Assembly: GCF_900111835.1 (NCBI RefSeq)
Contig: NZ_FOJP01000002.1
Span: 124,001 to 188,000, forward strand
From: Metapseudomonas otitidis
GTDB lineage: Bacteria; Pseudomonadota; Gammaproteobacteria; Pseudomonadales; Pseudomonadaceae
Length of the DNA: 64,000 bases
Direction: 5' to 3'
The notes under the pieces were generated by a model. The model made no database searches. It was not told the DNA's origin and was given only the letters and a program-made list of their open reading frames with translations. Position 1 is the first letter of the stretch. Each line of letters opens with the position of its first letter. A program made the position numbers and the translations under genes. Below are positions 25,616-62,230 of this stretch, one piece after another.

Positions 25616-26590
25616 TTATTTGCCTTCGGCTTCGGTCGCACCCTTGTGGGAGAGACTGTACACGTAGGCGGCCAGCAGGTGGACCTTGTCGTTACCCAGG
25701 TGTTCTTCCTGCGCCGGCATCATGCCCTGGCGACCATAGCGGATGGTCTGCTGCAGTTGGGCAAAGCTGCTGCCGTAGATGAACGCGTTGGGGTGGGTCA
25801 GGTTCGGAGCGCCCATGGCCGGGGTGCCCTTGCCTTCCGGACCGTGGCAGGCCACGCAGTTGGCAGCAAAGATGGCTTTGCCGTTTTCCGGGTTGGCGTT
25901 GGCGTCCTTCGGCAGGTCGCGACCATCCAGGGTCTGGCGCACAAAGGCGGCGACGTCACGAACGCCTTGCTCACCGATTACTTCGCCCCAGGCCGGCATC
26001 ACGCCGTGACGGCCGCCGAGGATGGTGGTCTTGATGGTCTCGGGCTCACCACCCCAGCGCCAGTCGGCGTCGGTCAGGTTCGGGAAGCCGTAGGAGCCCT
26101 TGGCGTCGGAGCCGTGGCACACCGAGCAGTTGGAGGCAAAGAGACGACCACCCATTTTCAGGGCTTTCTCGTCCTTGGCCACTTCCTCGATGGGCATGGC
26201 GGCGTATTTCTTGAACAGCGGGCCGTATTGCTGATCGGCCTTGTCCATTTCCTTTTCCCACTGGTGGACACCGGTCCAGCCGCTTTCGCCGTTGGCGAAG
26301 GGCTTGCCTTCGGCCACTTCGTTGTAGCCGGGGAAGATGCCTTTCCAGTTGCCCATGCCCGGGTACAGAACCAGGTAGCCGACGGCGAACACGAGGGTGC
26401 CGACGAACAGCATGAACCACCACTTGGGCAGCGGGTTGTCGTATTCCTCGATGCCGTCGAAGGCATGGCCGAGGGTTTCTTCGGTGGTTTCCTGGCGCTG
26501 GCCCTTGCGGGTGGCAAAGATCAGCACCGCCAGTGCCACCAGGGTGGCGCTGGTCAGGAGGGTTACGTACCAACTCCAGAACGTGGTCAT
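25616..26590 (-). CDS. ccoP1: cbb3 oxidase dihaem subunit CcoP, proximal operon
   Basis: A 324-residue protein. Two N-terminal membrane helices include [22 protein letters not shown]. Two class I cytochrome c domains carry haem sites CSVCH and CVACH, with Met ligands supplied by GVMPAWG and GMMPAQE. It passes electrons from cytochrome c to CcoO. It overlaps ccoQ by ATGA. Numbered 1 by position, following the P. aeruginosa arrangement where operon 1 adjoins ccoG. Confidence 0.95.
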
Positions 26591-26775
26591 TCGCTCTTAC
26601 TCCTAGAAGCTTCGTCGTCGCGCTTGGTGTCCGCCGGCTTGTCATCAGCGAAGGGCAGGTTGGCAGCTTCGTCGAAGCTGCTCTTGCGCTTGCCGTTGTA
26701 GGCCCAGAGGACGACGCCGATGAAGGCGACGAACACCAGGATGGTTCCCAGCCCGCGGAGAGTCTGGATATCCAT
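26587..26775 (-). CDS. ccoQ1: cbb3 oxidase subunit CcoQ, proximal operon
   Basis: A 62-residue protein. One membrane helix ([19 protein letters not shown]) is followed by a charged tail with LPFADDKP, the typical CcoQ pattern. CcoQ stabilises the oxidase complex. It lies 5 bp after ccoO and overlaps ccoP. Confidence 0.92.
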
Positions 26776-26780
26776 CGTGC

Positions 26781-27391
26781 TTACCGTTTGTTCTTGATCG
26801 AGGTGCCCAGACCCTGAAGGAACGCCACCAGTGCGTCCATCTCGGTCTTGCCCTTGACCGCGTCACGTGCGCCGGCGATGTCATCGTCGGTGTAGGGGAC
26901 GCCGAGGGTACGAAGCGCTTGCATCTTGGCAGCGGTGTCTTTGCCGTCGAGCTTGTTCTCAACCAGCCAGGGGTAGGCAGGCATCTTCGACTCGGGCACC
27001 ACGTTGCGCGGGTTGTACAGGTGCGCACGGTGCCAGTCGTCGGAGTAGCGGCCGCCTACGCGGGCCAGGTCCGGGCCGGTCCGCTTGGAGCCCCACAGGA
27101 AGGGGTGGTCCCACACGCTTTCACCGGCAACGGAGTAGTGGCCGTAGCGCTCGGTCTCGGCGCGGAAGGGGCGAACCATCTGCGAGTGGCAGCCGACGCA
27201 GCCTTCGCGGATGTAGATGTCGCGGCCTTCCAGCTCCAGCGCGGTACGCGGCTTCATGCCTTCGACCGGGGTGTTGGTCACGTCCTGGAAGAACAGCGGG
27301 ACGATCTGCACGAGACCGCCGATGCTAACGGCGATCACCATGAACAGTGCCAGCAGACCGACGTTCTTCTCGACTAATTCGTGTTGCTTCA

Positions 27392-27392
<1 letters not shown>
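26781..27392 (-). CDS. ccoO1: cbb3 oxidase monohaem subunit CcoO, proximal operon
   Basis: A 203-residue membrane-anchored cytochrome c. The N-terminal helix ([20 protein letters not shown]) is followed by haem site [11 protein letters not shown] and the Met ligand region SKMPAYPWL. Start and ccoN stop overlap by one base (TAATG). A stretch of the gene is nearly identical at DNA level to the distal copy, see findings. Confidence 0.95.
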
Positions 27393-29132
<1,740 letters not shown>

Positions 29133-29267: not shown

Positions 29268-30206
29268 TTACTCCGCTGCGACTTTGTCGCCGCCCTTGCG
29301 GGACAGGCTGTACACGTAGGCGGCCAGGATGTGGACCTTGTCCTGACCCAGGTACTGGTCCTGGGCGGGCATCTGGCCGTTACGACCGTAACGGATGGTC
29401 TGTTGCAGTTGGGCCAGGCTGGAGCCGTAGATCCAGGCGGCGGGCTTGGTCAGGTCCGGAGCGCCCATGGCCGGGGTGCCATGGCCTTCGGGGCCGTGGC
29501 AGGCCACGCAGGTGCTGGCGAACAGGGCCTTGCCGGCGGCCACGTCGGCCTTGGCGTCTTCCGGCAGCTTCAGGCCGGCCAGGTCCTGGCGGACATAGGC
29601 GGCCACGTTCTTGACGCCATCCTCACCGAGTACCTCGCCCCAGGCCGGCATGGCAGCCATGCGACCGTGGAGGATGGTGGTCTTGATGGTTTCGGCGTCG
29701 CCGCCCCAGCGCCAGCTGTCGTCGGCCAGGTTCGGGAAGCCGACGGCGCCCTTGGCGTCCGAGCCGTGGCAGATGGAGCAGTAGGTGGCGAACAGGCGGC
29801 CGCCCATCTTCAGGGCCTGCGGATCCTGGGCAACGGCTTCGACCGGCATGGCCGAATACTTGGCGAAGATCGGGCCGTACATCGCGTTGGCCTTGTCCAC
29901 TTCGCGCTGCCATTGCTTGTCCTGGGTCCAGCCGTCGTCATAGCCCGGCAGCACGCCCTTCCAGTTGCCCAGGCCCGGGTAGAGCGCCAGGTAGCCGAAG
30001 GTGAAGATGATGGTGCCGACGAACAGCATGAACCACCACTTGGGCAGCGGGTTGTCGTACTCCTCGATGCCGTCGAAGCTGTGGCCCATGGTCTTGTCGA
30101 CCGTGCCCTTGGCTTCGCCCTTGCGGGTGGCGAAAACCAGCCAGAGCAGCGCCACCAGGGTGAACAGGGTGAGCAGGGAGATGTACCAGCTCCAGAAAGT
30201 GCTCAT
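29268..30206 (-). CDS. ccoP2: cbb3 oxidase dihaem subunit CcoP, distal operon
   Basis: A 312-residue homologue of the proximal CcoP with the same layout: two membrane helices, haem sites CSICH and CVACH, and Met regions AAMPAWG and GQMPAQD. It is 12 residues shorter than the proximal copy, the periplasmic linker after the second helix being shorter ([16 protein letters not shown]). It overlaps ccoQ2 by ATGA. Confidence 0.94.
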
Positions 30207-30385
30207 TCGAATGTGCTCCTAGAATCATTCCGGTCTTGCGGGCTTGGCAGGTCGTCGCCGAAGGGCAGCAGGGCGGCCTGGTCGAAATCGGCCTTGCGGC
30301 GCCCGCTGTAGGCCCAGCAGATAACCCCGATCATCGCGACCAGCACCATCAGGGTGCCCAGGCCGCGAAGCGTTCCGATGTCCAT
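30203..30385 (-). CDS. ccoQ2: cbb3 oxidase subunit CcoQ, distal operon
   Basis: A 60-residue single-span protein ([21 protein letters not shown], then LLPFGDDLP). Homologous to the proximal ccoQ but more divergent than the other subunits. Between ccoO2 (3-bp gap) and ccoP2 (overlap). Confidence 0.92.
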
Positions 30386-30388
30386 GCC

Positions 30389-31000
30389 TTACCTCTTGTT
30401 CTTCAGGCTGGTGCCGAGCACCTGCAGGTAGGCCACCAGGGCGTCCATCTCGGTCTTGCCCTTCACGGCATCGGAGGCACCGGCGATGTCTTCTGCGGTA
30501 TAGGGAACGCCCAGCGTGCGCATGGCCGAGAGCTTGGCGGCGGTGTCCTTGCCGTCCAGGGTGTGCTCGACCAGCCAGGGGTAGGCGGGCATCTTCGACT
30601 CGGGCACCACGTTGCGCGGGTTGTAGAGGTGCGCACGGTGCCAGTCGTCGGAGTAGCGGCCGCCTACGCGGGCCAGGTCCGGGCCGGTCCGCTTGGAGCC
30701 CCACAGGAAGGGGTGGTCCCACACGCTTTCACCGGCAACGGAGTAGTGGCCGTAGCGCTCGGTCTCGGCGCGGAAGGGACGGACCATCTGCGAGTGGCAG
30801 CCGACGCAGCCTTCGCGGATGTAGATGTCGCGGCCTTCCAGTTGCAGGGCGGTGTAGGGCTTCATGCCTTCGACCGGGGTGTTGGTCACGTCCTGGAAGA
30901 ACAGCGGGACGATCTGAACCAGGCCGCCGATGCTGACGGCCAGGATCATGAACAACGCCATCAGGCCGACGTTCTTCTCGATGACTTCATGCTTTTTCAT
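30389..31000 (-). CDS. ccoO2: cbb3 oxidase monohaem subunit CcoO, distal operon
   Basis: A 203-residue protein, same length as the proximal copy, with haem site [11 protein letters not shown]. The protein differs mainly at the N-terminal helix and the C-terminal end; the middle is virtually identical down to codon choice. Confidence 0.95.
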
Positions 31001-31011
31001 CTATCGGCTCC

Positions 31012-32436
31012 TCAGGCGATCTGGGCGATGGCGTCGTACTCGGCCGGCTTGGCGGCCTTGACGGTGCGGTAGGTGTTGTAGGCCATCAGCAGCATGCCGG
31101 AGAGGAAGATCGCGCCGCCGATCATGCGCACCACGAAGCCGGGGTGGCTGGCTTCCAGCGCTTCGACGAAGGAGTAGGTGAGGGTGCCGTCTTCGTTGAC
31201 TGCACGCCACATTAGGCCCTGGGCGATGCCGTTGACCCACATCGAGGCGATGTAGAGCACGGTGCCGATGGTGGCCAGCCAGAAGTGTGCGTTGATCAGG
31301 CCGACGCTGTGCATCTGCTCGCGACCGAACACCTTCGGGATCAGGTGGTACAGCGAGCCGATGGACACCATCGCAACCCAGCCGAGGGCACCGGCGTGTA
31401 CGTGGCCGATGGTCCAGTCGGTGTAGTGGGAGAGGGCGTTGACGGTCTTGATGGCCATCATCGGGCCTTCGAAGGTGCTCATGCCGTAGAAGGCCAGGGA
31501 GACCACCAGGAAGCGCAGGATTGGATCGTCGCGCAGCTTATGCCAGGCGCCCGACAGGGTCATCATGCCGTTGATCATGCCGCCCCAGCTCGGAGCCAGC
31601 AGGATCAGGGACATCACCATGCCCAGGGACTGCGCCCAATCCGGCAGCGCGGTGTAGTGCAGGTGGTGCGGACCGGCCCAGATGTAAACGGCGATCAGCG
31701 CCCAGAAGTGCACGATGGACAGGCGATAGGAGTAGACCGGACGGCCCGCCTGCTTCGGCACGAAGTAGTACATCATCCCCAGGAAGCCGGCGGTCAGGAA
31801 GAAGCCCACCGCGTTGTGGCCGTACCACCACTGGATCATGGCGTCGGTCGCACCGGCATACAGCGAGTAGGACTTGGTCAGGGTGACCGGGATTTCCAGG
31901 TTGTTGACGATGTGCAGAATGGCCACGGTCAGGATGAACCCGCCGAAGAACCAGTTGCCCACGTAGATGTGTTTGGTGCGGCGCTTCATCACGGTGCCGA
32001 AGAACACCATGGCGTAGGCCACCCAGACGACGGTGATGAGCAGGTCGATCGGCCATTCCAGCTCGGCGTATTCCTTCGAGCTAGTCCAGCCCATCGGCAG
32101 GCTGATCGCGGCGAGCACGATCACCAGTTGCCAACCCCAGAAGGTGAAGGCCGCGAGGCCATCGGACACCAGGCGGGTCTGGCAGGTACGCTGGACGGCG
32201 TAGTAAGAGGTTGCGAACAGCGCGCAGCCACCGAAGGCGAAGATCACCGCGTTGGTGTGCAGCGGGCGCAAGCGGCCAAAACTGGTCCAGGGAAGGTTGA
32301 AATTGAGCTCCGGCCAGGCCAGCTGAGCGGCAATGAGAACGCCGAGCCCCATCCCGACGATTCCCCAGACCACCGTCATGATGGCGAACTGGCGGACCAC
32401 CTTGTAGTTGTAGGCGGTACTGACTTCTGTGTTCAT
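31012..32436 (-). CDS. ccoN2: cbb3 oxidase catalytic subunit CcoN, distal operon
   Basis: A 474-residue subunit I with the same His-bearing segments as the proximal copy ([37 protein letters not shown]). Start ATG 32436 ([14 protein letters not shown]). First gene of ccoNOQP-2, with a perfect Anr box 72 bp upstream, so it is expected to be induced when oxygen falls. Confidence 0.95.
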
Positions 32437-32507
32437 GTGCTTGGGCTTCCGTACACGGTTTTTTAGGAATTGCCGCGAAAGCATGGTTAAACACCCGTTT
32501 TGCCCCA

Positions 32508-48043: not shown

Positions 48044-49129
48044 ATGAGCATCCTCCCCAACAGCATGCGTGCCGCGGTGTGGCACGGTCGCAACGACATC
48101 CGCGTGGAAGACGTGCCCCTGCCCGGCGACCCGGCCCCCGGCTGGGTGCAGATCCGCGTGCACTGGTGCGGCATCTGCGGCTCCGACCTGCACGAGTACG
48201 TCGCCGGCCCCGTGTTCATCCCCGTGGAAGCGCCGCACCCGCTCACCGGCATCAAGGGCCAGTGCATCCTCGGCCACGAGTTCTGCGGCGAGATCGTCAA
48301 GCTCGGCGACGGCGTGCAGGGCTTCGCCCCGGGCGAAGTGGTCGCCGCCGACGCCTGCCAGCACTGCGGCACCTGCTACTACTGCCGCCACGGCCTCTAC
48401 AACATCTGCGAGAACCTCGCCTTCACCGGGCTGATGAACAACGGCGCCTTCGCCGAATGGGTCAACGTCCCCGCCAACCTGCTGTACAAGCTCCCGGCCG
48501 GCTTCCCCGCCGAGGCCGGCGCCCTGATCGAACCGCTGGCCGTGGGCATGCACGCGGTGAAGAAGGCCGGCAGCCTGCTCGGGCGCAACGTGGTGGTCGT
48601 GGGGGCGGGCACCATCGGCCTGTGCACCATCATGTGCGCCAGGGCCGCCGGCGCCGCCCAGGTCATCGCCCTGGAGATGTCCAGCGCGCGCAAGGCCAAG
48701 GCCCGCGAAGTGGGCGCCAGCCACGTGCTGGACCCGAACGAATGCGACGTGCTCGCCGAGATCCGCACGCTCACCCAGGGCCTGGGCGCCGACGTCAGCT
48801 TCGAATGCATCGGCAACAAGCACACCGCCAAGCTCGCCATCGACGCCATCCGCAAGGCCGGCACCTGCGTGCTGGTGGGCATCTTCGAAGAGCCCAGCTC
48901 GTTCAACTTCTTCGAACTGGTGGCCACCGAGAAACAGGTCCTCGGCGCCCTGGCCTACAACGGCGAATTCGCCGACGTCATCGCCTTCATCGCCGACGGC
49001 CGCCTCGACATCACGCCCCTGGTCACCGGCCGAATCGAGCTGGAGCAGATCGTCGAAAAGGGCTTCGAAGAACTTGTGCACAACAAGGAACACAACGTGA
49101 AGATCATCGTCTCCCCGCGTGCGGCATAA
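48044..49129 (+). CDS. bdh: 2,3-Butanediol dehydrogenase, zinc-dependent
   Basis: A 361-residue MDR-family enzyme. Catalytic zinc ligands are in CGICGSDLHEY and GHEFCGE; structural zinc Cys are CQHCGTCYYCRHGLYNIC; the cofactor motif is VVVGAGTIGLCTI. It oxidises 2,3-butanediol to acetoin for AcoABC. Start 48044 has CCAGGAGAACCCC. The 3' 450 bp or so plus terminator are duplicated about 5 kb downstream as a decayed copy. Confidence 0.95.
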   Translation: MSILPNSMRAAVWHGRNDIRVEDVPLPGDPAPGWVQIRVHWCGICGSDLHEYVAGPVFIPVEAPHPLTGIKGQCILGHEFCGEIVKLGDGVQGFAPGEVVAADACQHCGTCYYCRHGLYNICENLAFTGLMNNGAFAEWVNVPANLLYKLPAGFPAEAGALIEPLAVGMHAVKKAGSLLGRNVVVVGAGTIGLCTIMCARAAGAAQVIALEMSSARKAKAREVGASHVLDPNECDVLAEIRTLTQGLGADVSFECIGNKHTAKLAIDAIRKAGTCVLVGIFEEPSSFNFFELVATEKQVLGALAYNGEFADVIAFIADGRLDITPLVTGRIELEQIVEKGFEELVHNKEHNVKIIVSPRAA

Positions 49130-49152
49130 GCCCCGACTGAGGCCGCGAACTG

Positions 49153-49187
49153 CGGCCTGACCCCGGCGCCAGGCCGGGGTTTTTTTG
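49153..49187 (+). terminator. Terminator of the acetoin operon
   Basis: A GGCCGCG-AAC-TGCGGCC stem is followed by CCCCGGC-GCCA-GGCCGGGG with seven T residues. The same double structure ends the decayed bdh copy. Confidence 0.88.
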
Positions 49188-49294
49188 TGGGGGAGGGGGG
49201 AAGGGCTGTTATCGGCGCGAAGCTGCCACAGGAATGTGGCAGCTTGCCACGCGGTTCTGAATCCAGGCGTGGATGCAGTTCAAATTGGAGCGAC

Positions 49295-52730: not shown

Positions 52731-53582
52731 TCAGAGGCAGATGGGGACGGGGTGCGTGACGCCGGGGAGCGGAGCAGCCCCTGCTCCGCTGGTGCGATCC
52801 GACAGGTAGCGAGCTGGAGGCTTGCCCACCGTCTTGCGGAACATGGTGACGAATCCGCTGGCGTTTTCGTACCCCAGTTCCAATGCCACCGATTGCACGC
52901 TTTCTCCCTTGGTCATCCGTTGCAGCGCGAGGGTCACATGCAGCTGTCGACGCCAGCGGCTGAAGCTCATGCCAATCTCATGCAATAGGAGACGGCTCAT
53001 GCTTCGCTCACTCATACCGATACGCCTGGCCCAGGCGGCTTTCGAGGTCTTGTCGGCAGGGGCGGCCAGGAGCATTTCTGCGAGGCGACGCAATCGGGGG
53101 TCGTACGGCATGGGCAGATGCAAATCTTCTACTGGAGCCGCCACCAGTTCGTCGAGCAATACGGCGAGCAGCCGCTCCTCCCGCCCGCCCGGCTCATACA
53201 GCTCGGGAACAGTTGTTGCCTTCAGCATCAACTCCCGTAGAAATGGCGACACCGATATCGTGCAACAGCTGCTTGGAAGATCTGGCGCAGCATCGGGCTC
53301 GATGAACAGGCAGTGACACTCGACTTCCCCCGAGCCCCAAGCCGAGTGGGGCAGGTCTCCCGGGATCCACAAGGCGCACTGCGGCGGCACGATCCAGACA
53401 CCGTCCTCGATTTCGCAGTTGAGGATGCCTCGTACCGAGTAGATCAGTTGCGCCTTGCGGTGCTGATGCGTGGCATTTTCCCAGTCCTTGCCGGCCAGCG
53501 TTGCACTCAGTGCCATGACGGGGCGCGAGACGCTGTCGACGTCCCTGGGGGCGCTTTGATCGGTGATGGCAATGCTCGACAT
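52731..53582 (-). CDS. AraC-family transcriptional regulator
   Basis: A 283-residue protein. The N-terminal cupin-type ligand domain (QLIYSVRGILNCEIEDG, ALWIPGDLPHSAWG) is followed by the double HTH of the AraC family (TSKAAWARRIGMSERSMSRLL and VQSVALELGYENASGFVTMFRKTVGKPPARY). It probably activates the receptor gene that follows, as PchR-like and AlcR-like regulators do for siderophore systems. Upstream, after about 100 bp, comes the junction with the duplicated bdh fragment. Confidence 0.9.
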   Translation of the reverse strand: MSSIAITDQSAPRDVDSVSRPVMALSATLAGKDWENATHQHRKAQLIYSVRGILNCEIEDGVWIVPPQCALWIPGDLPHSAWGSGEVECHCLFIEPDAAPDLPSSCCTISVSPFLRELMLKATTVPELYEPGGREERLLAVLLDELVAAPVEDLHLPMPYDPRLRRLAEMLLAAPADKTSKAAWARRIGMSERSMSRLLLHEIGMSFSRWRRQLHVTLALQRMTKGESVQSVALELGYENASGFVTMFRKTVGKPPARYLSDRTSGAGAAPLPGVTHPVPICL

Positions 53583-53681
53583 GATGAACCGGGTCTTGGA
53601 TGGAGGATGAGGTGATGGCCTGGCCGGAAAATACTATGGGCAACTTGCTCAATTACTTCTAGCCATTCCTCTTGTTTTGCG

Positions 53682-54257
53682 CTGCGGCTCCGACCTGCAC
53701 GAGTACGTCGCCGGCCCCGTGTTCATCCCCGTGGAAGTGCCGCACCCGCTCACCGGCATCAAGGGCCAGTGCATCCTCGGCCACGAGTTCTGCGGCGAGA
53801 TCGTCAAGCTCGCCGAATCCGCGCGCTCACCCAGGACCTGGGCGCCGACGTCAGCTTCGAATGCATCGGCAACAAGCACACCGCCAAGCTCGCAATCGAC
53901 GCCATCCGCAAGGCCGGCACCTGCGTGCTGGTGGGCATCTTCGAAGAGCCCAGCTCGTTCAACTTCTTCGAACTGGTGGCCACCGAAAAACAGGTCCTCG
54001 GCGCCCTGGCCTACAACGGCGAATTCGCCGACGTCATCGCCTTCATCGCCGACGGCCGCCTCGACATCACGCCCCTGGTCACCGGCCGCATCGAGCTGGA
54101 GCAGATCGTCGAAAAGGGCTTCGAAGAGCTGGTGCACAACAAGGAGCACAACGTGAAGATCATTGTTTCCCCGCGTGCGGCATAAGCCCCGACTGAGGCC
54201 GCGAACTGCGGCCTGACCCCGGCGCCAGGCCGGGTTTTTTTGTGAGGGAGGGGGAGT
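53682..54257 (+). pseudogene. Decayed second copy of the bdh 3' part with its terminator
   Basis: Homology to the intact bdh begins at its CGSDLHEY codons (intact position about 48175) and ends after the terminator (about 49205). Only scattered mismatches are seen between copies. The 5' part of the gene is missing. An internal segment of 450 bp (intact 48301-48750) has been deleted at a GCTCG microhomology, which alone would keep frame; an additional one-base loss (GAGATCC to GAATCC) shifts it. The zinc-site residues after GHEFCGE and the cofactor-binding region are lost, so no enzyme is made. The duplicate terminator is intact (54193-54241). Confidence 0.92.
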
Positions 54258-54419
54258 AGGTGGACCTTTGATGGGTAGGTATCGGCCGGATGCAGTCATT
54301 GTGGTTCTATGAGCGTCGAGTCGATTTGACCTCCCTAAGCTGGTTTCAAAAGTGGCAATTGGCCACGCACTGATTAGTATTTCTCCTGAAGGACATGTCC
54401 TGGTCAAGGAGAGACGCTA
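54258..54419 (+). promoter_or_regulatory. Upstream region of the DUF6119-like gene
   Basis: 162 bp where base composition drops sharply compared with the flanking Pseudomonas genes. It contains a perfect 12-bp palindrome AGGACATGTCCT (54390-54401), directly before the ribosome binding site AAGGAGAG. The palindrome could be an operator. No promoter elements are assigned. Confidence 0.4.
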
Positions 54420-56090
54420 ATGCCAAATCCAGAGAAGACTAGAACTCTTTCAGTGCGGCTCTTACGAGACGCGCAGAGGCCAGATGCTGCGTTGAAGCTT
54501 GCCTATGTACCTGGCAGTGAAAAAGGAGCATTGCGGAAGTTCGCTTGGACGGGAATCGACGATGCGGTTCTCTTCGTTGGTCAGCTCTACACGAACCCAC
54601 CATCTTGGCTTCCCTTTGTCGAGGAGCACTTGGATGGCGAAGTGGGGCGAGTCATCTCTAGTGGCGCGGGTGCAATTCTAATACTCCCCATACGTAATCG
54701 TCTTATGGCGATCTGTTTCGGCCATATCCACTTGGCATTGAATGACGATGCATTCGAGCGCCACTTCGGTCTGAAAGTAACGCTGAACTCCGTACCTCGC
54801 GATGGGATCCGGTCTCTGGACTTAGCTACTCCCGACGCAGTTACCTTTCAGAAACGAGTACAGGCCAGCCGTGACAGTGACGTCCAAGACTTCGGCGTGG
54901 ACATGCTCCGAGATCTAGCACGCGTCGCTGGGGGCACACCTACCGATCAAAATTTTGCCAAGTTCTTGGCGGGGAGTGACAGCCTGTCTATTACCTGTCG
55001 GGTAGGCTCAGACGATCTTCAGGAGAAGTGCGAGGAGATCTTGGCCGCGTACAACGCCGAAACGTACAAGGCGGATTTTGCATGGGTCGACAACATGCAA
55101 ACTGTCAGAGACAGCGACACGATCCTGGCATTGGACGAGCGTCTGTTTGAAGCGTTGCAGATCCTCCGGCAAGGTGGTGAGAGCGATCTTCATATGGCTC
55201 CGCCTGAGGTGCTGGACTACGAAGAAGGCTGTCTATTGCACTACAACGGGTTTGGAGGTGGCGGCACTCAATTTCATAGTCTCTCCATTGAGGACTATGT
55301 CGAAGAGCTTAATCGCTGCGGTTTCAAAGGCGATATCAATCAGGTGCGCGAAAAACACTACATCCGGGCGAAGACCGGCTCCTCTGAGGTCTTCAATACT
55401 CAATGGAAGGTCTATCAATGCTTCACGTTCGAAACCACTTTGGGCAAAGGAGGCGAGGAAATAAGCTACGTCCTCTTTTCTGGAAATTGGTACTGCATCG
55501 AACGCAACTTCAAACAGAAGGTTGAGCGGCGATTCCAGCAGATCCGCAAGATCACAATCATCGGACCTACTCACTGCAAGAACGAAAGGGATCTGATTGC
55601 TCATCTAGTGGAGACCAGGCCCGATTTGTTGTGCCTCGATCAAGTGAAGATCAATCCTCAAGGCGTGAGGTACGCGAACATAGAGCCTTGCGATTTTTTG
55701 TCAGATACCAAGCAGTTCATCCATCTGAAAGATGGCCATTCCTCTGGCCCCATCAGCCACCTTTGGTCGCAGGGAGTCGTCAGCGCTGAAGCGCTAATTG
55801 GGGATGAAGCATATAGAAAGAAACTTCGCCAAGAGGTCAGGCAGCGTCGAGCAGGGGCTCTAGCCCTGCTGCCAGCGATCAAAGGAAAAGTGTCTCGATC
55901 AGAGTACACCGTTGTGTATGGCGTAATGCGAAAGCCTTACAAGGATGGAAGCGTGGATCTCCCATTCTTTAGCAAAGTGAGTCTGCAGGCGGCGGCAGAT
56001 CGTTTGGAGCAACTCGATATACCAATGGCACTGGAGATCATTGCTAAGCCGGCTGGTGAACTTGGTGCTGAAGAAGGTGATGGAGAGTAA
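54420..56090 (+). CDS. DUF6119 (TIGR04141-like, sporadically distributed) protein
   Basis: A 556-residue soluble protein with no signal peptide or membrane helix. Overall pattern fits the sporadically distributed DUF6119 family as I remember it: an N-terminal SVRLLRDAQRPDAALK segment, GSGDS-like FLAGSDSLSITC near the middle, and a C-terminal IVYGV/LPFFSKVSL block (TVVYGVMRKPYKDGS, LPFFSKVSLQAAADRLEQL). No catalytic motif could be assigned with confidence. GC near one half in the lines checked, versus two thirds for neighbours, indicates transfer. The start has AAGGAGAGACGCTA. It faces the STAND NTPase gene, 109 bp apart. Family assignment by eye, moderate certainty. Confidence 0.7.
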   Translation: MPNPEKTRTLSVRLLRDAQRPDAALKLAYVPGSEKGALRKFAWTGIDDAVLFVGQLYTNPPSWLPFVEEHLDGEVGRVISSGAGAILILPIRNRLMAICFGHIHLALNDDAFERHFGLKVTLNSVPRDGIRSLDLATPDAVTFQKRVQASRDSDVQDFGVDMLRDLARVAGGTPTDQNFAKFLAGSDSLSITCRVGSDDLQEKCEEILAAYNAETYKADFAWVDNMQTVRDSDTILALDERLFEALQILRQGGESDLHMAPPEVLDYEEGCLLHYNGFGGGGTQFHSLSIEDYVEELNRCGFKGDINQVREKHYIRAKTGSSEVFNTQWKVYQCFTFETTLGKGGEEISYVLFSGNWYCIERNFKQKVERRFQQIRKITIIGPTHCKNERDLIAHLVETRPDLLCLDQVKINPQGVRYANIEPCDFLSDTKQFIHLKDGHSSGPISHLWSQGVVSAEALIGDEAYRKKLRQEVRQRRAGALALLPAIKGKVSRSEYTVVYGVMRKPYKDGSVDLPFFSKVSLQAAADRLEQLDIPMALEIIAKPAGELGAEEGDGE

Positions 56091-56133
56091 AGGACGGTAC
56101 ATGCTTAGGGCGGGGATTAGTCGGCCACGAGAG

Positions 56134-56183
56134 GCAGTTACCGGCCAATAGCTGCCGGTTAGGACGAGCAGTTACCGGCCAAT
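56134..56183 (+). repeat. Two direct copies of a GCAGTTACCGGCCAAT motif
   Basis: Exact 16-bp copies at 56134-56149 and 56168-56183, 34 bp apart, with an inverted AGCTGCCGGT between them. They occupy the convergent spacer between the two low-GC genes. A one-mismatch copy in inverted orientation lies at 60303-60317, on the other side of the NTPase gene. Confidence 0.75.
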
Positions 56184-56199
56184 GGAGCGTCGGGCTAGC

Positions 56200-59100
56200 C
56201 TATTCGAAGCTCCCAGTACGCTCGCGCTCCTCTTCGTCCTCTCGAAGCTCCTCCGCTGCGATTCTTCGTTCGAGGCTCGCTCTAGCTGTCGCCAATACTG
56301 GTTTCAGCTGTTCTTCGTTACCGAGACTCAGAGCATCGAGAAGCGGAATCCGTTTCTTCAGGATTTCGGCCAAAGACCCGGACCAGCCTGAAGGCGTAAA
56401 TCGCTTCAAATAGGCTTCGATTACAGCCTTCTTATCAGGAGCATTAGCTAGCACAGCCAGCGCGGCATCCGAAATAACCAACTCAGAATCGTCCACAGAG
56501 TCGATATTGGTATGCCCTTCACTTGCTCGCCTTCGCGTGTCGAATAGCTTACAGCTCCGCGCCGCGAACACGTAACGATCAGGCGGCGAGTCATTACACC
56601 AATCGATCAATGCCTCCGGTGGGACTATGCTCAGGGCTGTCTCCCTCCGATCATTGTAAGGGTGCCCAATCACCGGCAACATCTGACGGTAGTAACCTTC
56701 ATCTCCGGGAACATAGATCGCGTCAAGAGTTAGTCGCGGCATGTGCCTCAGGAATGGAGAAATTGCGTCTTTGACGGCATCTCTATCGGAATAACCACCC
56801 TCCATCGTGCGCGCAAAGGTAACCAGACCGTTCAAGACCTCCAGCGCTGCTTCGGAAGAAGCTAATCGCTTCAGTGAAAACTCCAATACGCCCTCAATGT
56901 GGTAACCGCTATTGGCGCGATCCCCAAGAACCTGTCCCCAGTCGGCTGAGCGCAAAAGATTCAGGCAGGTTGTCGCCAGAGACTCCTTGTACGCATCATC
57001 GTGATCTGACGCACAGTGGACGACCATTGAAAGAACGTCGAGAAACACTCCCCCACCATCAGGCAGCAGTGCTATTGCAGCAAGCAACTCACCAATCTCT
57101 GCAACAGAGAATGCGTCGGTTTGTCTCCCCATCCCGAGATAGGAGTATTGCCAGGCAGGGGTAGCCCCAGCCTTAATTGATTGGAGGATACGAGCGTAAG
57201 CCGCTTGGTTCAGCGGTATGCAATGAAGGTCCATGATCCACTTGACCCAAATTGCATCAGTCACCGCGCTGTCGAGGAACTCCTCGGCACAAGCGGGAGA
57301 TGCATGATGCCAGCCGTTGATCAATCCGCGTAGGAACAAGACACCTACTGTTCCGGGAGTGGCAGTGGCGATATGTACCTTAGCCGCATCCAAAATCCAT
57401 CTCGGGTCCGCAATCTTCTTTCCAACACCAACCCCCAAAGGAAATGCGTTGGCCCCTGACTTGGTTGAGATCAATTGCGGGAGTAACTCCAAGATTAGGC
57501 CGTCAATGGTGGCAGCGGCCTCCCCAAGCTCTTCCAAGGCCTGGTTTGAGTTGCGGATTCGCTCACCAGTTGTTTTATCAAGCTGATCTGCATCATCGCC
57601 ATCAAGATCTAGGTCGAAATTGTTCGAGTCTAGAAGTCGAGCTCGAATCATGTCTGGTATAGCCTTCGGTTTGAGAAACTTCTCCAACTCGCGCAGCTCG
57701 TTCTGAACTGCCTCATCGCATTTGCTCGAGTCATAGCGAAGGATGCTTTTGACTCCAAACCAACCTTGAGGCCAGCTCACGACAGAAGCCAGTTCTTTTA
57801 CGGCTGCACACACTTCTGGCCTCAGACTCGTGCCAAGCCAAAGCCCTCTTAAGCGGCGACCCAAAATAGATCTGCAACTTTCAGCAAGGTCGGACTTCTG
57901 CTTACCAATGTCGCGTGCCATGCGGAGGAACGGCATAAACCACGACTCAACATCTGATCGGGATTCCGGAGCCCATCCCTCGCTCCGCTTTCGAGCTCCG
58001 AAATCGAAACTGCTCACAGAGGTAAAGTGCATTGCCTCAAGCGCGGCATCGAGCAGCAACAGCCCCAACTGCTCTCGCTTAGGATCGGCGGATTCAAGCA
58101 ATTTTCTGACGAACTCTGACCTGAGATTGGGAGGGGCATTCGTCCCGGATAGTACGCAGAAAAACAGAGACTTCAGAAGTTCCACAGATTCGTGCCGCCC
58201 CTTTTCCTGGGGGGCTGCCAAGGCGAATTTCACAAGAATATCGGCGGCCATCTCGAAGTCTTCTTCTTCGAACGCGATGGCTTTCAACGTGTGCGCATAC
58301 TGAGCACGTTGTCTGTTTTCGTCCGAAAGAAAGCTAGGGATATTGGCAGCCCGCCCAATTGCCGCTAGGGCGACCTTTGGAGATACAGGCGCAATGTTGT
58401 GAAAAATCTCATGGCCAATGTCATTGAGAGCCGTTAGATCTCCCAAACGGCCGGATGGCGAGAGCCAGTCCCGTACAAGCTCGGCGGCTTTTGCGCTTTC
58501 ATGTAGGTAACCAAGTCGCCGCGAGAACGACCGGGCAACACGGTCGGTCGCGGTATCGACAAAGATACTCACGATCTGCGATTTGGGTATCGCTTCTAGT
58601 GCCTGGGCTGCAAGTCGATTAGCAATCGCGTGTGGCAAAACAGCACGCCATTTTCCCCGCGCCTGTACAAGACCTCTTCGCTGTAGATCAACCACTTTTC
58701 GCTGTAGGGTGATCAATGAAACGTCAGCAACAGCGGCAATTTTGTTGAGCTCTGAACTAGGGCCATCGTCCTCGCCGTCGAACGAGTACAAGATACTGGC
58801 CGCTTCCGCGCAGCTGAGGAGATCTTCATTCTCGGCGTTTTTCTGATGAAATAGGCGCTTGAACAAGTCAGAGTCTCGCAACCGCGCCAGCTCACCAGTC
58901 GTCGTAACCGTCGCTGCCAACGCAAACGCGACGCGAGCATTACCGTCTGAGAATGCGGTGATCGTATCGACATCACTGAGCGATAGGACTGGATAACGAC
59001 GCTGAAGAAGCTTCTTGATTACGTCATCGGAGGAGCCTTCGAGACGGTAGCACTTCGTGGCGTCTGGTAAGTCGTCTCGAACGTCGTACTCAACAGTAAC

Positions 59101-60075
59101 CAAGCCTATCTTGCTGCCAGATTTTTTCAGTAGCTCGGTGAGCCTCTGATGAGTGTCGGCTCCGCAGTTGTCCACGACGAGAACACAGTGATTTCCGTCT
59201 TCAATTAGCGCTTCGAGCATCGCTGAAGGTTGAGGCGAAGGCCCATCTGATAGGTCCGTGTACAGCACGTCATCAGCACTCAGCGCAGCTTGGTTCGTCT
59301 GTATACGCGGATCGAAAAGAGCCTGTACCAATCTAGTTTTGCCGACGCCAGATAAGCCGACAATGCGTACACTTGCCCCCTTCGACAGGTCGAGACGCAG
59401 GCGATCAATGGTGGCCGAGACATTAATGCCTTTCTCTGCGTCAGGCGTGAACACTTTGACTCGATCATCAAGCAGATATTCTGAGTCGACGGTCGTCTCC
59501 TGGTAGGCCCAGCCCGAGTATGGGCGCCAACCCACAAGTGGCTTGCCTAGCTGGTGTTTCACCCATGCTGCGATCGCAGGGTGTTGCTCGACCCAGTCTG
59601 CGATCTTTCTTGCGTCATAGAAGTCAAAATGCGGCGAGGAGCCGAGGCCGTTGGCCGACAAGCAAGCTCTCATTGCATTGAGTCGAAGATCGAGAGCGGA
59701 TTCGGAGGTATCGTCTCGCGTCGCGGCGATGACGTAACTTCCTTTGGTCGTAGCAAGGTCGCGTATTGCTTGTCTTAGCACTCCATTGGGCACCATTTCC
59801 CCAGGTATCTTGCTGGGGGGGAACACCTCGGCCTTTACCTGAAAAGCTGTGTTGTCATTGGGTAGATAGCCAGATATCCCCAGTGGCGGATTTATCTCTA
59901 CCCTGACGTCCACCCCTCCATCTTTTGCTCTTTGATCGCCACCCCAGGTGACGGCCGACTCGGAGCCACCGTACTTTCGAATCTCAGCCCGGCACAATCT
60001 TGCGATCAGTTCGCGCGCTTGCTCGTCGTTCAGGGCTTTTATGTCCGCAGTATCTACGTGAAATAGTGTGTGCAT
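56200..60075 (-). CDS. STAND-type NTPase with N-terminal PD-(D/E)XK nuclease-like domain
   Basis: A 1291-residue cytosolic protein. Residues 30-120 look like a Mrr/Cap4-type nuclease: WGGDQRAKDGGVDVRVE (Asp52/Asp56, Glu60) and AFQVKAE (Gln79-x-Lys81), then a long beta/alpha stretch with SYVIAATRDD. A STAND NTPase module follows, with Walker A GLSGVGKTR at 240-248 and Walker B CVLVVDN at 297-303. A winged-helix-like part (VSLITLQRKVVDLQRRGLV) is near residue 480. The remaining 750 residues are helical and probably form the sensor/repeat region. This order (effector nuclease, STAND, long sensor) is that of Avs-like antiphage proteins. Low GC. No clear ribosome site. Function inferred, not proven. 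Confidence 0.8.
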   Translation of the reverse strand: MHTLFHVDTADIKALNDEQARELIARLCRAEIRKYGGSESAVTWGGDQRAKDGGVDVRVEINPPLGISGYLPNDNTAFQVKAEVFPPSKIPGEMVPNGVLRQAIRDLATTKGSYVIAATRDDTSESALDLRLNAMRACLSANGLGSSPHFDFYDARKIADWVEQHPAIAAWVKHQLGKPLVGWRPYSGWAYQETTVDSEYLLDDRVKVFTPDAEKGINVSATIDRLRLDLSKGASVRIVGLSGVGKTRLVQALFDPRIQTNQAALSADDVLYTDLSDGPSPQPSAMLEALIEDGNHCVLVVDNCGADTHQRLTELLKKSGSKIGLVTVEYDVRDDLPDATKCYRLEGSSDDVIKKLLQRRYPVLSLSDVDTITAFSDGNARVAFALAATVTTTGELARLRDSDLFKRLFHQKNAENEDLLSCAEAASILYSFDGEDDGPSSELNKIAAVADVSLITLQRKVVDLQRRGLVQARGKWRAVLPHAIANRLAAQALEAIPKSQIVSIFVDTATDRVARSFSRRLGYLHESAKAAELVRDWLSPSGRLGDLTALNDIGHEIFHNIAPVSPKVALAAIGRAANIPSFLSDENRQRAQYAHTLKAIAFEEEDFEMAADILVKFALAAPQEKGRHESVELLKSLFFCVLSGTNAPPNLRSEFVRKLLESADPKREQLGLLLLDAALEAMHFTSVSSFDFGARKRSEGWAPESRSDVESWFMPFLRMARDIGKQKSDLAESCRSILGRRLRGLWLGTSLRPEVCAAVKELASVVSWPQGWFGVKSILRYDSSKCDEAVQNELRELEKFLKPKAIPDMIRARLLDSNNFDLDLDGDDADQLDKTTGERIRNSNQALEELGEAAATIDGLILELLPQLISTKSGANAFPLGVGVGKKIADPRWILDAAKVHIATATPGTVGVLFLRGLINGWHHASPACAEEFLDSAVTDAIWVKWIMDLHCIPLNQAAYARILQSIKAGATPAWQYSYLGMGRQTDAFSVAEIGELLAAIALLPDGGGVFLDVLSMVVHCASDHDDAYKESLATTCLNLLRSADWGQVLGDRANSGYHIEGVLEFSLKRLASSEAALEVLNGLVTFARTMEGGYSDRDAVKDAISPFLRHMPRLTLDAIYVPGDEGYYRQMLPVIGHPYNDRRETALSIVPPEALIDWCNDSPPDRYVFAARSCKLFDTRRRASEGHTNIDSVDDSELVISDAALAVLANAPDKKAVIEAYLKRFTPSGWSGSLAEILKKRIPLLDALSLGNEEQLKPVLATARASLERRIAAEELREDEEERERTGSFE

Positions 60076-60369
60076 TTTAGGGGGAGCGTCAGGCTGACTG
60101 AGGCCTTAGCTTATAGCCTGAAGGCCTTTTGACACAGCAAGGACTGGCAAGACGAAATAGTTTAGGGTTGGTTCCATCCGGCCAGCATGGCCGCAAACCA
60201 AACTGGGAAATCCACAGTCCTCCGGGTATTCATCTCTGGCCGTTAGAACCCTCCACGTGGTTGTCTTCGGTGCCACTGCTTGGAAACCTGGATGACTGCT
60301 TCTGGCCGATAACTGCCATTCCCACCAAAAAACGCCGCACTCCCATGCGGCGTTTCCATTTCCACCTCC
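60076..60369. other. Intergenic region between the STAND NTPase and the Bro-N gene
   Basis: 294 bp. It presumably contains the NTPase promoter. It carries the inverted copy TGGCCGATAACTGCC (60303-60317) of the spacer repeat and the Bro-N terminator. A short open frame on the + strand lacks a start context and family similarity, so nothing is called. Confidence 0.5.
60326..60354 (-). terminator. Terminator of the Bro-N gene
   Basis: On the minus strand AAACGCCGCA-TGGGAG-TGCGGCGTTTTTT: perfect stem and T-run. Confidence 0.88.
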
Positions 60370-60867
60370 CTAGAAAAACCGCCTCCAACTCGGCCCATCC
60401 CCCAACAACGGGTCGTCATGCACCGCCATGAAACGCGGCAGGTCTTGCCGGGCGATCCAGGTTTCGCTTTGCCAGTGCAGCGCGGCGATGCGTTGGTTGG
60501 CCCAGGTCATGAGAATGCGTCGCGGGCTGGCCTGCGGGTCGCGGTGGTAGTCGTGGAGGGTGGGAATCACTTCGTCGCTGAGCCATTGGCTGAGGGCGCA
60601 GTGTTCGGGGTGGCCGAAGCGGTAGAGGGCGCGGTAGAGGCCGGCGTCACTGACCAGTTCCACTTCTTCGCAGCGCCCTGTGCTGTAGCGGAGAAAGGCG
60701 AAGCGGAATTGGTGGGGGTAGAGGCGTTTGGTCAGGCGGTAGGGCCGGGTGGCGGCGATCATCAGGGCGAAGTCGAGGGCGACGAACCAGGGGCGGTTGT
60801 CGATCATGACGGCGCGCAGTTGATGGCAGTGGCGTTGGAAGGTGATGGGGGTGAATGCGTCATGCAT
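60370..60867 (-). CDS. Bro-N (phage antirepressor-type) domain protein
   Basis: A 165-residue protein. The Bro-N domain occupies most of it: ITFQRHCHQLRAVMIDNRPW, FVALDFALMIAATRP, SDAGLYRALYRFGHPEH and LSQWLSDEVIPTLHDY are the family blocks. A divergent tail of about 40 residues follows. Bro-N proteins bind DNA in phages and prophages as antirepressors. GC is again high here. No other phage genes are nearby, so this is an isolated copy. The 604 bp upstream is unusually structured. Confidence 0.82.
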   Translation of the reverse strand: MHDAFTPITFQRHCHQLRAVMIDNRPWFVALDFALMIAATRPYRLTKRLYPHQFRFAFLRYSTGRCEEVELVSDAGLYRALYRFGHPEHCALSQWLSDEVIPTLHDYHRDPQASPRRILMTWANQRIAALHWQSETWIARQDLPRFMAVHDDPLLGDGPSWRRFF

Positions 60868-61471
60868 GGTGTTGCTCCAATGTCGGTTAAGGAGCTGCCA
60901 CCTACGTCGCTAAACGAAAGGGTGGCAGACCGCGCAGGGTTAGCGAACCGGAGACATTGGAATCCGGCAGACCCGAGGGTCTCCCCACGCGATCTGCCAT
61001 AGAGCGGTGCAGTAAAAACTGCATGCGTGCCAATGCCTGCAAGAAACATCCGCCGTTTCTCGCATGCACCAGCTGGCGCAATCGCGCCAATGTCTTTCGG
61101 GTCGCTAAACCCGGCCACGGGATTGACCGTGGCCGGCGCAGGATAGGGACGGCCGAGCCCGAGGGCAAGGGGAGGAGGGGGCCGGCACGGCGACAGGCTG
61201 CCGTCTTGTCTGGGAGAAAGTAGCGGGTCTTGGGGCGGAAAGCGTTACGTCAGGCCGAGCCCACGATCTGCCGCTGACCGAGTGAGGCGGTTGCTTGAAT
61301 AACCGCCTTGGGTGCTCTCAGTGGTGTGGTTGCAGGTTGGGCTGATCGGCACGTTCACCCTTCGATTCGGGATGAACGTGCCGGGGGGCACGGCCCTTCA
61401 CGGTTGGCGTGGACGTGGCCGCTTTCGATCCGCCGCGCGCCACCTTTGCCACGCCCTTGTTCAAGGCCTCG
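60868..61471 (-). other. Structured non-coding region upstream of the Bro-N gene
   Basis: 604 bp without a supportable gene. CCAATGTC (60877-60884) pairs with GACATTGG (60953-60960) around an inner hairpin GCTGCCACC / GGGTGGCAG. CCAATGTC recurs at 61087 and GTCGCTAAAC occurs twice (60906-60915, 61101-61110), with an inverted relative TTAGCGA at 60940. Further perfect hairpins are CCGGCCACGG-N6-CCGTGGCCGG (61111-61136), GGCGGTT-N8-AACCGCC (61286-61307) and CGGCACGTTCA-N15-TGAACGTGCCG (61347-61383). The density suggests a structured leader, ncRNA or operator array. Confidence 0.55.
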
Positions 61472-62230
61472 TCAACCTGGGCGGCGTGCTTCGAAGCTGA
61501 TGATGGGATCGCTCTGGCAAGGGGAGCGGCCATGCTGGTAGCCGCCTGACGCCACCACCTCTACAAAGCCCGCTTCGCGCAGTGCGAATGCCAGTTCGTC
61601 GACGCCCCACCAGCGCAAGTGGAACAGATCCAGTTCGGCGGACTGCAAGGTGCCGTCTTGCCAATGCTGGTAGTGCAGATGGGACAGCGTGGTTTGCTTG
61701 CGGTAGTCCACTTCGGCCCGGTGGCTGGTCAGCGTGAGGAGGTTGTTGCCATCCACTTTCCAACTCCGTGCCGCCTGTGCCTCCCCGATGATGCTCTCGA
61801 TGGGGTCGATATCGATGATCAACCGCCCGCCGGGCTGCAAGTGATTCCAGAACCGCTTGAGCACGGCCATTGCGGAGGCAGTTTCGGTAATCAGCTGGAA
61901 TGACCCGGCGGGCATGATGATGGCCGCGAATCGCTGGTCATAGCGGAACTGCTCGAACGTCTGCTGTGTGAGGGGCGCGGGCAGCCCTCGCGCCCGGCAT
62001 TCCTGCCGGCAGTATTCGAGCATCTCGTGGGAGGCATCGAAGCCCTCGATGGCCAGGCCCCTCTCCAGCAGCGGTATGAAGATCCGCCCATTGCCCACTG
62101 CGGGCTCCAGTACCGGGCCATCAACGTCCGCCAGGCGCTGCTGGTAGTACTCCAGGTCTCCAAATGAATGGCCGATGGGTTTATCCAGGTGATAAATCCA
62201 CGAGGCGAGTCGTCCGTATCGGTTTTGCAT
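61472..62230 (-). CDS. Class I SAM-dependent methyltransferase
   Basis: A 252-residue enzyme. SAM-binding motif I is VLEPAVGNGRIFIPLL near residue 43, acidic motif II IEGFDASHEML, motif post-I AAIIMPAGSFQLI and motif III LQPGGRLIIDI. I use ATG 62230 because GGAGAGTGAT lies just before it; an in-frame ATG at 62242 adds four residues. Substrate unknown. Monocistronic. Confidence 0.88.
   Translation of the reverse strand: MQNRYGRLASWIYHLDKPIGHSFGDLEYYQQRLADVDGPVLEPAVGNGRIFIPLLERGLAIEGFDASHEMLEYCRQECRARGLPAPLTQQTFEQFRYDQRFAAIIMPAGSFQLITETASAMAVLKRFWNHLQPGGRLIIDIDPIESIIGEAQAARSWKVDGNNLLTLTSHRAEVDYRKQTTLSHLHYQHWQDGTLQSAELDLFHLRWWGVDELAFALREAGFVEVVASGGYQHGRSPCQSDPIISFEARRPG

Follow-up and report, generated by a model that had tools for sequence, protein, structure and literature searches.

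The stretch analysed here, 64,000 bp of Metapseudomonas otitidis DNA (contig NZ_FOJP01000002.1, positions 124,001 to 188,000; "the window" in the following), contains a low-GC segment in which a gene for a DUF6119 protein and a gene for a large protein, combining a putative PD-(D/E)XK-like nuclease with a STAND NTPase, lie side by side (Table 1). The segment is likely to consist of two independent single-gene cassettes, inserted side by side at an accessory location, and not of a two-gene system. Both cassettes appear to be bounded by copies or halves of a Pseudomonadaceae palindromic repeat of about 60 nt, and their integron-like layout is the novel lead provided by this analysis.

Distribution of the two gene families

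The preliminary description of this DNA had proposed the two genes as a pair, forming a candidate new defence system. The pairing, although tempting, turned out to be unsupported: DUF6119 is absent from all of the 14 other distinct loci or genomes with a STAND relative that were checked, and the STAND gene moves alone. The 14 comprise the loci L006 to L009 (8 kb), whose STAND proteins are 87-93% identical to that of the window, the whole genomes G118 (of which L006 is a contig), G079 and G013, and the viral contigs L099 to L106, carrying relatives 29-39% identical, with 0.3-8 kb of flanking sequence on each side.

Among 369 genomes sampled from the class, 13 matched the STAND model, four matched DUF6119 and two matched both. 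These two are the window's own genome and G385, in which a DUF6119 fragment, truncated by the end of its contig, and the STAND gene are on separate contigs; the other 11 STAND-bearing genomes contain no DUF6119 match. Among 30 STAND and 23 DUF6119 rows of the plasmid survey, a single plasmid record had both families, at a distance of more than 1 Mb. In the neighbourhood survey proposed earlier, DUF6119 was not found beside the homologues of the window's STAND gene that were checked; it does recur near other defence genes, as detailed below.

The two genes are probably neighbours by chance. A functional two-gene system, in which DUF6119 regulates or completes the STAND protein in place of PD-lambda-4B, is considered unlikely: the palindromic repeat found between the two genes adds to the absence of DUF6119 from the other loci and to the independent movement of the STAND gene, and genes which converge cannot form one operon. 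In favour of such a system, the two genes are adjacent, convergent, equally low in GC and framed together by the outer repeat halves 54274-54306 and 60285-60317. A gene following an Avs3a gene in Agrobacterium, whose DUF6119 product is 59% identical to that of the window, fits the two-gene system and speaks against independent cassettes.

Borders of the STAND unit

The window matches L006 to L009, at 89-93% identity, only from 56133 or 56173 to 60297 or 60324, over about 4.15 kb; flanks and neighbouring genes differ in all of these loci. The unit is found next to genes for a TIR protein and a Mrr-ATPase in L007, to Lamassu-like proteins in L008 and to two large proteins with weak STAND/NACHT matches in L009. 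As L007 belongs to Corticimicrobacter populi, the unit has crossed genera. The STAND frame of L007 is broken after codon 50, the first 50 codons lying in a different frame from the rest; this, and the decay of a duplicate gene near the window's segment, would suit a STAND gene reduced to a decaying remnant without function, a very improbable explanation given that the 1291-codon frame is open in the window and that the full frame, together with all motifs, is kept in L006, L008 and L009.

The 3' end of the unit coincides with a repeat not only in the window, but also in L006 (11892-11994), L007 (11890-11948) and L008 (11890-11951), and in both L006 and L007 the cassette starts with AGTCATC, directly following GGCCAAAAGC. 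When the ten block ends of the five STAND loci were compared with matches to R1, a covariance model of the repeat, six were found within 30 bp of a match, while random placement gave at most three in 20,000 trials. Since the five loci share their ends by descent, this marks the repeat as a part of the moving unit, and does not represent five independent events. The STAND cassette has moved between sites, and to the Corticimicrobacter genome, probably by exchange near the 3' end of the repeat.

The outer borders of the segment are marked by half repeats. The pair 54274-54306/60285-60317 is the longest inverted repeat of the region 53400-61500, and the same edges recur in a congeneric genome, G004, whose locus L065 matches at 93% through window position 54299, with a half repeat at 2571-2595, and again from L065 5666 on, corresponding to window position 60303. 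In G004 the edges enclose a different gene pair, encoding a PhoD-like phosphatase and a TPR protein. The flanking half repeats suggest that DUF6119 may itself be a moving cassette.

Several observations weigh against this delimitation of the cassettes. The shared descent of the five loci makes their ends not independent; R1 finds no repeat at either end of the unit in L009, nor at the 5' ends in L006 and L008, and the ends lacking an R1 match gave only weak nhmmer matches. The half repeat at 60293-60337 is itself weak in R1 (E 0.06), and differs by one mismatch in 25 from the search motif, which was derived from it; at 54274-54306 R1 gave no match.

The repeat family and its cargo

A motif search detected 34 matches in 21 of 76 genomes, compared with two for a reversed control. 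The resulting consensus of 21 copies, TGACCGCTTTTGGCCGATTGCTGCC...GGCAGC.ATCGGCCA.AAGCGG, describes a palindrome of about 60 nt with 11 predicted pairs, two of which show compensatory changes. By using R1, the repeat was found in 50 of 115 genomes, including the window's own: 49 belong to the same family as the window, the other being a weak match outside it. No match was obtained in 17 control stretches at E up to 0.1. Known RNA families do not account for the repeats: Rfam matches were limited to a C4 RNA with its target for the window stretch, and to a single C4 RNA for the five array loci searched. Literature searches found no published description of the palindrome.

Repeat copies recur at gene-sized spacing, and the cargo is found in either orientation. 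In G005 (L112 8507-17209), three repeats frame two single genes of about 1265 aa, Tmn-like and Dsr1-like according to PADLOC. An independent case is provided by a second cargo, common to G009 and G060 (L157 and L159; PDC-S35 by PADLOC in L157), in which the shared sequence sets in immediately behind GGCCAGAAGC, each time in a different repeat; the STAND cassette starts at this position as well. At the opposite end, the copy in L159 is the shorter one, leaving 70 bp between it and a repeat.

Defence genes have been reported in chromosomal integrons. The largest open reading frame of each repeat-bounded interval matched a PADLOC model in 11 of 30 cases at E up to 1e-5 (3 of 20 for control reading frames) and in 8 of 30 at E up to 1e-20 (1 of 20). 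The 11 matches are Tmn, Dsr1, Drt3b, Agao, mad3, PDC-S35, PDC-M36A, PDC-S59 (weak), a BREX/DISARM-type helicase, Hp2 and an amino-acid transporter. The excess has to be read with caution: the transporter model is counted among the matches although regarded as spurious, the 30 intervals are a deliberate, non-random selection from 39 (the 20 controls coming from 34), and defence genes are in any case abundant in the accessory stretches where the repeats are located. The remaining cargo is mixed and several intervals hold ordinary high-GC genes. The repeat therefore shows no specificity for defence, and the excess of defence matches is a modest one. If the repeats do delimit mobile cassettes, they would make it simple to search Pseudomonas for unknown defence genes, and would represent a new way of shuffling single immune genes.

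Possible mechanisms of cassette movement

The arrangement resembles integron cassettes in consisting of arrays of small gene units, separated by palindromic sites of about 60 nt, and in that cargo homology sets in close to the 3' end of a site. The core of an integron attC site is GTTRRRY; inspection by eye of the 21-copy consensus found neither this core nor its inverse. The repeats also differ from attC sites in that the palindrome is nearly symmetrical and the cargo may have either orientation, and an integron integrase (IntI) exceeding the cut-off was detected in just three of 20 genomes with repeats, the window's own not being among them. A canonical integron was rejected on the basis of the missing core and of the rarity of the integrase.

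A different enzyme, which appeared among the weak matches of the integrase search, was found near some repeats. A solitary tyrosine recombinase of 220 aa, encoded in G053 (L161 4468-5130; Phage_integrase, E 4e-19), is located 0.2 kb from a repeat, and a copy in the window's own genome (G000:C32:21062-21718) lies about 12 kb from one; recombinase genes on the contig of a listed repeat, within about 13 kb, are present in G000, G008, G060 and G063. At E up to 1e-20, fragments included, the recombinase was detected in 19 of the 50 genomes with repeats, as against 6 of the 65 others. As it is missing from 31 of the 50 and the comparison is uncorrected for kinship, which could alone explain the excess, the recombinase is a candidate only; both points tell against the cassette reading.

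Two explanations of the repeats were considered. They may be ordinary dispersed intergenic palindromes, the apparent cassettes arising by chance through homologous or illegitimate recombination between them, with no dedicated machinery. The chances of this explanation are judged about even: the spread of the repeat over 49 genomes of one family, the variable junctions (full, half or none), the scarcity of integron integrase, the absence of the tyrosine recombinase from 31 of 50 repeat-bearing genomes, and the intervals occupied by high-GC chromosomal genes are set against two unrelated cargoes starting at the same repeat position and the gene-sized spacing of the copies. More tentatively, the repeats could belong to an unrecognised integron-like system of the Pseudomonadaceae, in which single genes or short operons, often with an anti-phage role, are located between palindromic non-attC sites of about 60 nt and are shuffled by a dedicated recombinase acting near the 3' end of the site, at the end of GGCCRRAAGC. 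Cassettes of such a system would pass singly between arrays and across genera, with the solitary 220-aa tyrosine recombinase as one candidate enzyme, and the window would show two of them, a PD-lambda-4A relative without its B gene and DUF6119, side by side.

The STAND protein

The preliminary description had regarded the large protein as a shorter, distinct member of the Avs-like proteins. It proved to be a relative of a known phage-defence family, identified by experiment, under which the gene can now be filed, and not to found a new family: the protein matches PADLOC model PDLC03991 (PD-Lambda-4_A) with E 3.3e-260, residues 4-1285 of 1291 aligning to positions 3-1280 of 1283. At E up to 1, only three weak matches to other PADLOC models, and none to an Avs model, were found besides. 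Pfam and NCBIfam gave sub-threshold matches around the P-loop only, and a sequence search of the PDB a weak match to the TnsC P-loop (E 7e-4, residues 208-326), others being no better than E 0.1. No relative was detected in the phage collection at E up to 1e-5.

The residues pointed out earlier were evaluated in alignments of 7 and 11 sequences, the latter including ten sequences 37-93% identical to the window's protein. The nuclease residues D52, D56, Q79 and K81 are invariant in both, while Glu60, listed with them, is variable (S in L074, R in L073) and has to be dropped. As to the Walker motifs, G240, S242, G243, G245 and K246 of Walker A and D302-N303 of Walker B are invariant in both alignments, T247 in the smaller one only.

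In the AlphaFold2 model, the N-terminus contains a helix (17-34) and strands 42-44, 57-60 and 75-81, followed by helices, a strand (113-118), a helix and a strand (149-153). This order would fit a PD-(D/E)XK nuclease; model confidence is low around residues 47-52. The nuclease is tentatively assigned by motif and by predicted secondary-structure order, and hhalign comparisons were not significant, either with one Mrr_cat domain (E 0.011, probability 4%) or with an Avs3a N-terminus (probability 0.2%), all of which tempers the assignment. Foldseek, run on the same model, gave Avs4 as the top PDB match and also matched NLRC4, NOD2 and NRC2. For the STAND core, VIA retrieved a number of AAA proteins with similar Z, EfAvs5 and 6mfv being two of them; since it covered mainly residues 178-487, its lack of a nuclease match is uninformative.

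The proposed nuclease-STAND architecture, with an Avs-like build, agrees with these data, the nuclease by motif. The protein shares with Avs4 (PDB 8dgf) and other Avs proteins the order of N-terminal nuclease (in the window's protein by motif), STAND NTPase and long C-terminal region, and is shorter than the Avs4 chain (1291 and 1534 aa, respectively). Avs proteins sense a phage component, assemble in an ATP-driven manner and cut DNA with their N-terminal nuclease. By analogy with these relatives, the C-terminal region of the window's protein most likely binds a conserved phage protein, ATP binding would then drive assembly, and the nuclease would cut DNA, with arrest of the phage or death of the cell as the outcome.

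Relation to PD-lambda-4

A search begun from an Enterobacter relative detected related DNA in 173 of 5426 E. coli genomes. In strain FEX669 the A gene covers all 1283 positions of PDLC03991 and is followed, 45 bp on, by a gene for a protein of 303 aa, which matches PD-Lambda-4_B at 303 of 303 positions; in EC71 the B gene is in two pieces. In STEC434 (L109), no B gene was found beside PD-lambda-4A, and a reverse transcriptase gene follows.

The window's protein is 30.2% identical to the E. coli PD-lambda-4A over 1258 alignment positions, the nuclease-motif and P-loop regions being aligned, and resembles it over the full length. The locus differs in lacking B, in having its own upstream region and flanking repeats, and in its Pseudomonas and Corticimicrobacter hosts. 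When the window and the loci L004-L009 and L073-L111 were searched by tblastn with the E. coli B protein (E 0.01), only L110 and L111 gave matches. As B is absent, the window's gene is an orphan A relative and not a PD-lambda-4 system. DUF6119 cannot be equated with PD-lambda-4B, which is a different protein of 303 aa; no PADLOC match to DUF6119 was found at E up to 1. Relatives of the large protein often stand without the second one, and the STAND protein may work without B or with a chromosomal stand-in.

According to the naming rule of Vassallo et al. 2022 (PMC9519451), PD-lambda-4 derives from a selection with lambda-vir. The main text of that paper does not name PD-lambda-4 in words, and is therefore silent on its mechanism; the sole domain statement found is in PMC10952713, where a table lists a P-loop.

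The DUF6119 protein and its neighbours

The protein described as DUF6119-like is a true DUF6119 member, matching PF19614 (E 2.9e-137, 459 bits for a curated cut-off of 27) and TIGR04141 (E 3.4e-135) nearly over its full length. Residues E422, D425, H435, K437, S446, H447 and Q451 are invariant in an alignment of nine sequences. It is only an idea that the E..D...H-x-K motif might form an active site resembling that of PD-(D/E)XK nucleases. A literature search on the function of DUF6119/TIGR04141 found no paper beyond an unrelated one on wheat.

Relatives of DUF6119 were found on 23 plasmid records, and those of the STAND protein on 44. Eight of the 23 DUF6119 regions were opened, seven of them annotated, and 30 of the 44 STAND rows viewed, a limited coverage which weakens the case for independent genes. 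In four of the seven annotated regions the DUF6119 gene is located between hsdS and hsdR of a type I restriction operon, in one it is beside such an operon, in one it directly follows an Avs3a gene and in one no defence genes are found. The Avs3a neighbour, on a plasmid of Agrobacterium CG920 (L090 1339-9653), is a NACHT protein of 2146 aa (PADLOC E 1.3e-165 over residues 11-997), and may represent a STAND link, contrary to the separation of the two families.

On the basis of the annotated plasmid regions, DUF6119 is a recurrent defence-associated gene with changing partners, so the defence context suggested for it holds, in five cases with type I restriction and in one with Avs; the window differs from these in placing it beside a PD-lambda-4A-like gene. 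It probably serves as an accessory or effector that is interchangeable among the various defence systems beside which it recurs. One partial relative of DUF6119 was detected in viral scans, and none in three further ones. In L088 (G287), DUF6119 is contained in an open frame of 841 residues, possibly fused to another domain.

Features of the accessory segment

The positions of the features are collected in Table 1. The coordinates, strands and GC dip noted earlier for the two reading frames were all confirmed, as was the spacer of 109 bp (56091-56199); GC is about 53% over 54-60 kb and 61-73% in 2-kb windows away from the segment.

Table 1. Features of the low-GC segment and of its borders, in window coordinates.
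Feature	Position	Strand	Evidence
DUF6119/TIGR04141 gene, 556 aa	54420-56090	+	Open reading frame, PF19614 and TIGR04141 matches
PD-lambda-4A-like nuclease-STAND gene, 1291 aa	56200-60075	-	Open frame, PADLOC PDLC03991
N-terminal PD-(D/E)XK-like domain, residues ~1-175	59551-60075	-	Invariant D52, D56, Q79, K81
STAND NTPase core, residues ~205-410 (Walker A 240-247, Walker B D302)	58846-59463	-	Alignments, Foldseek, VIA
C-terminal region, residues ~561-1291, presumed sensor	56203-58395	-	Aligned full length in homologues
STAND upstream region, part of the cassette at each of the five loci	60076-60290	-	Alignment; DNA blocks end at 60297-60324
Palindromic repeat, 3' end of STAND cassette, in convergent spacer	56132-56190		R1, 31.9 and 25.8 bits, two strands
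Half repeat, 5' end of STAND cassette, right edge of low-GC segment	60293-60337		R1, 21.5 bits
Half repeat 5' of DUF6119, left edge of low-GC segment	54274-54306		33-nt inverted match (79%) to 60285-60317
Decayed partial duplicate, left edge of accessory site	53682-54254	+	Copies gene at ~48.2-49.2 kb
Bro-N gene, C4 antisense RNA and target; insertion site, outside the system	60370-61146	-	PF02498, RF01695, RF03163

The decayed duplication reported beside the gene pair is real: sequences 48175-48309 and 48751-49199 are repeated at 53682-53816 and 53808-54254 with 97-98.5% identity. By eye, the source gene resembles a Zn-dependent dehydrogenase, and this gene and its internally deleted partial copy flank a pair of TonB-receptor-like and AraC-like genes.

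On the right side, the Bro-N assignment of the neighbouring gene (60370-60867) is weak by Pfam, being under the cut-off for PF02498 (E 2.2e-4). A C4 antisense RNA (60918-61004, RF01695, 85 bits) and its target (61094-61146, RF03163, 53 bits), both upstream of the gene, support an Ant/Bro-N antirepressor unit. DNA of this unit (60318-61500) is matched in 17 of 18 genomes of the genus, at 1-22 places each, fragments included. A tRNA-bounded island was rejected, as a tRNA search of the window found none. Elsewhere in the window, a direct duplication of 3.2 kb is present (25641-28843 and 29293-32450, 82% identity).

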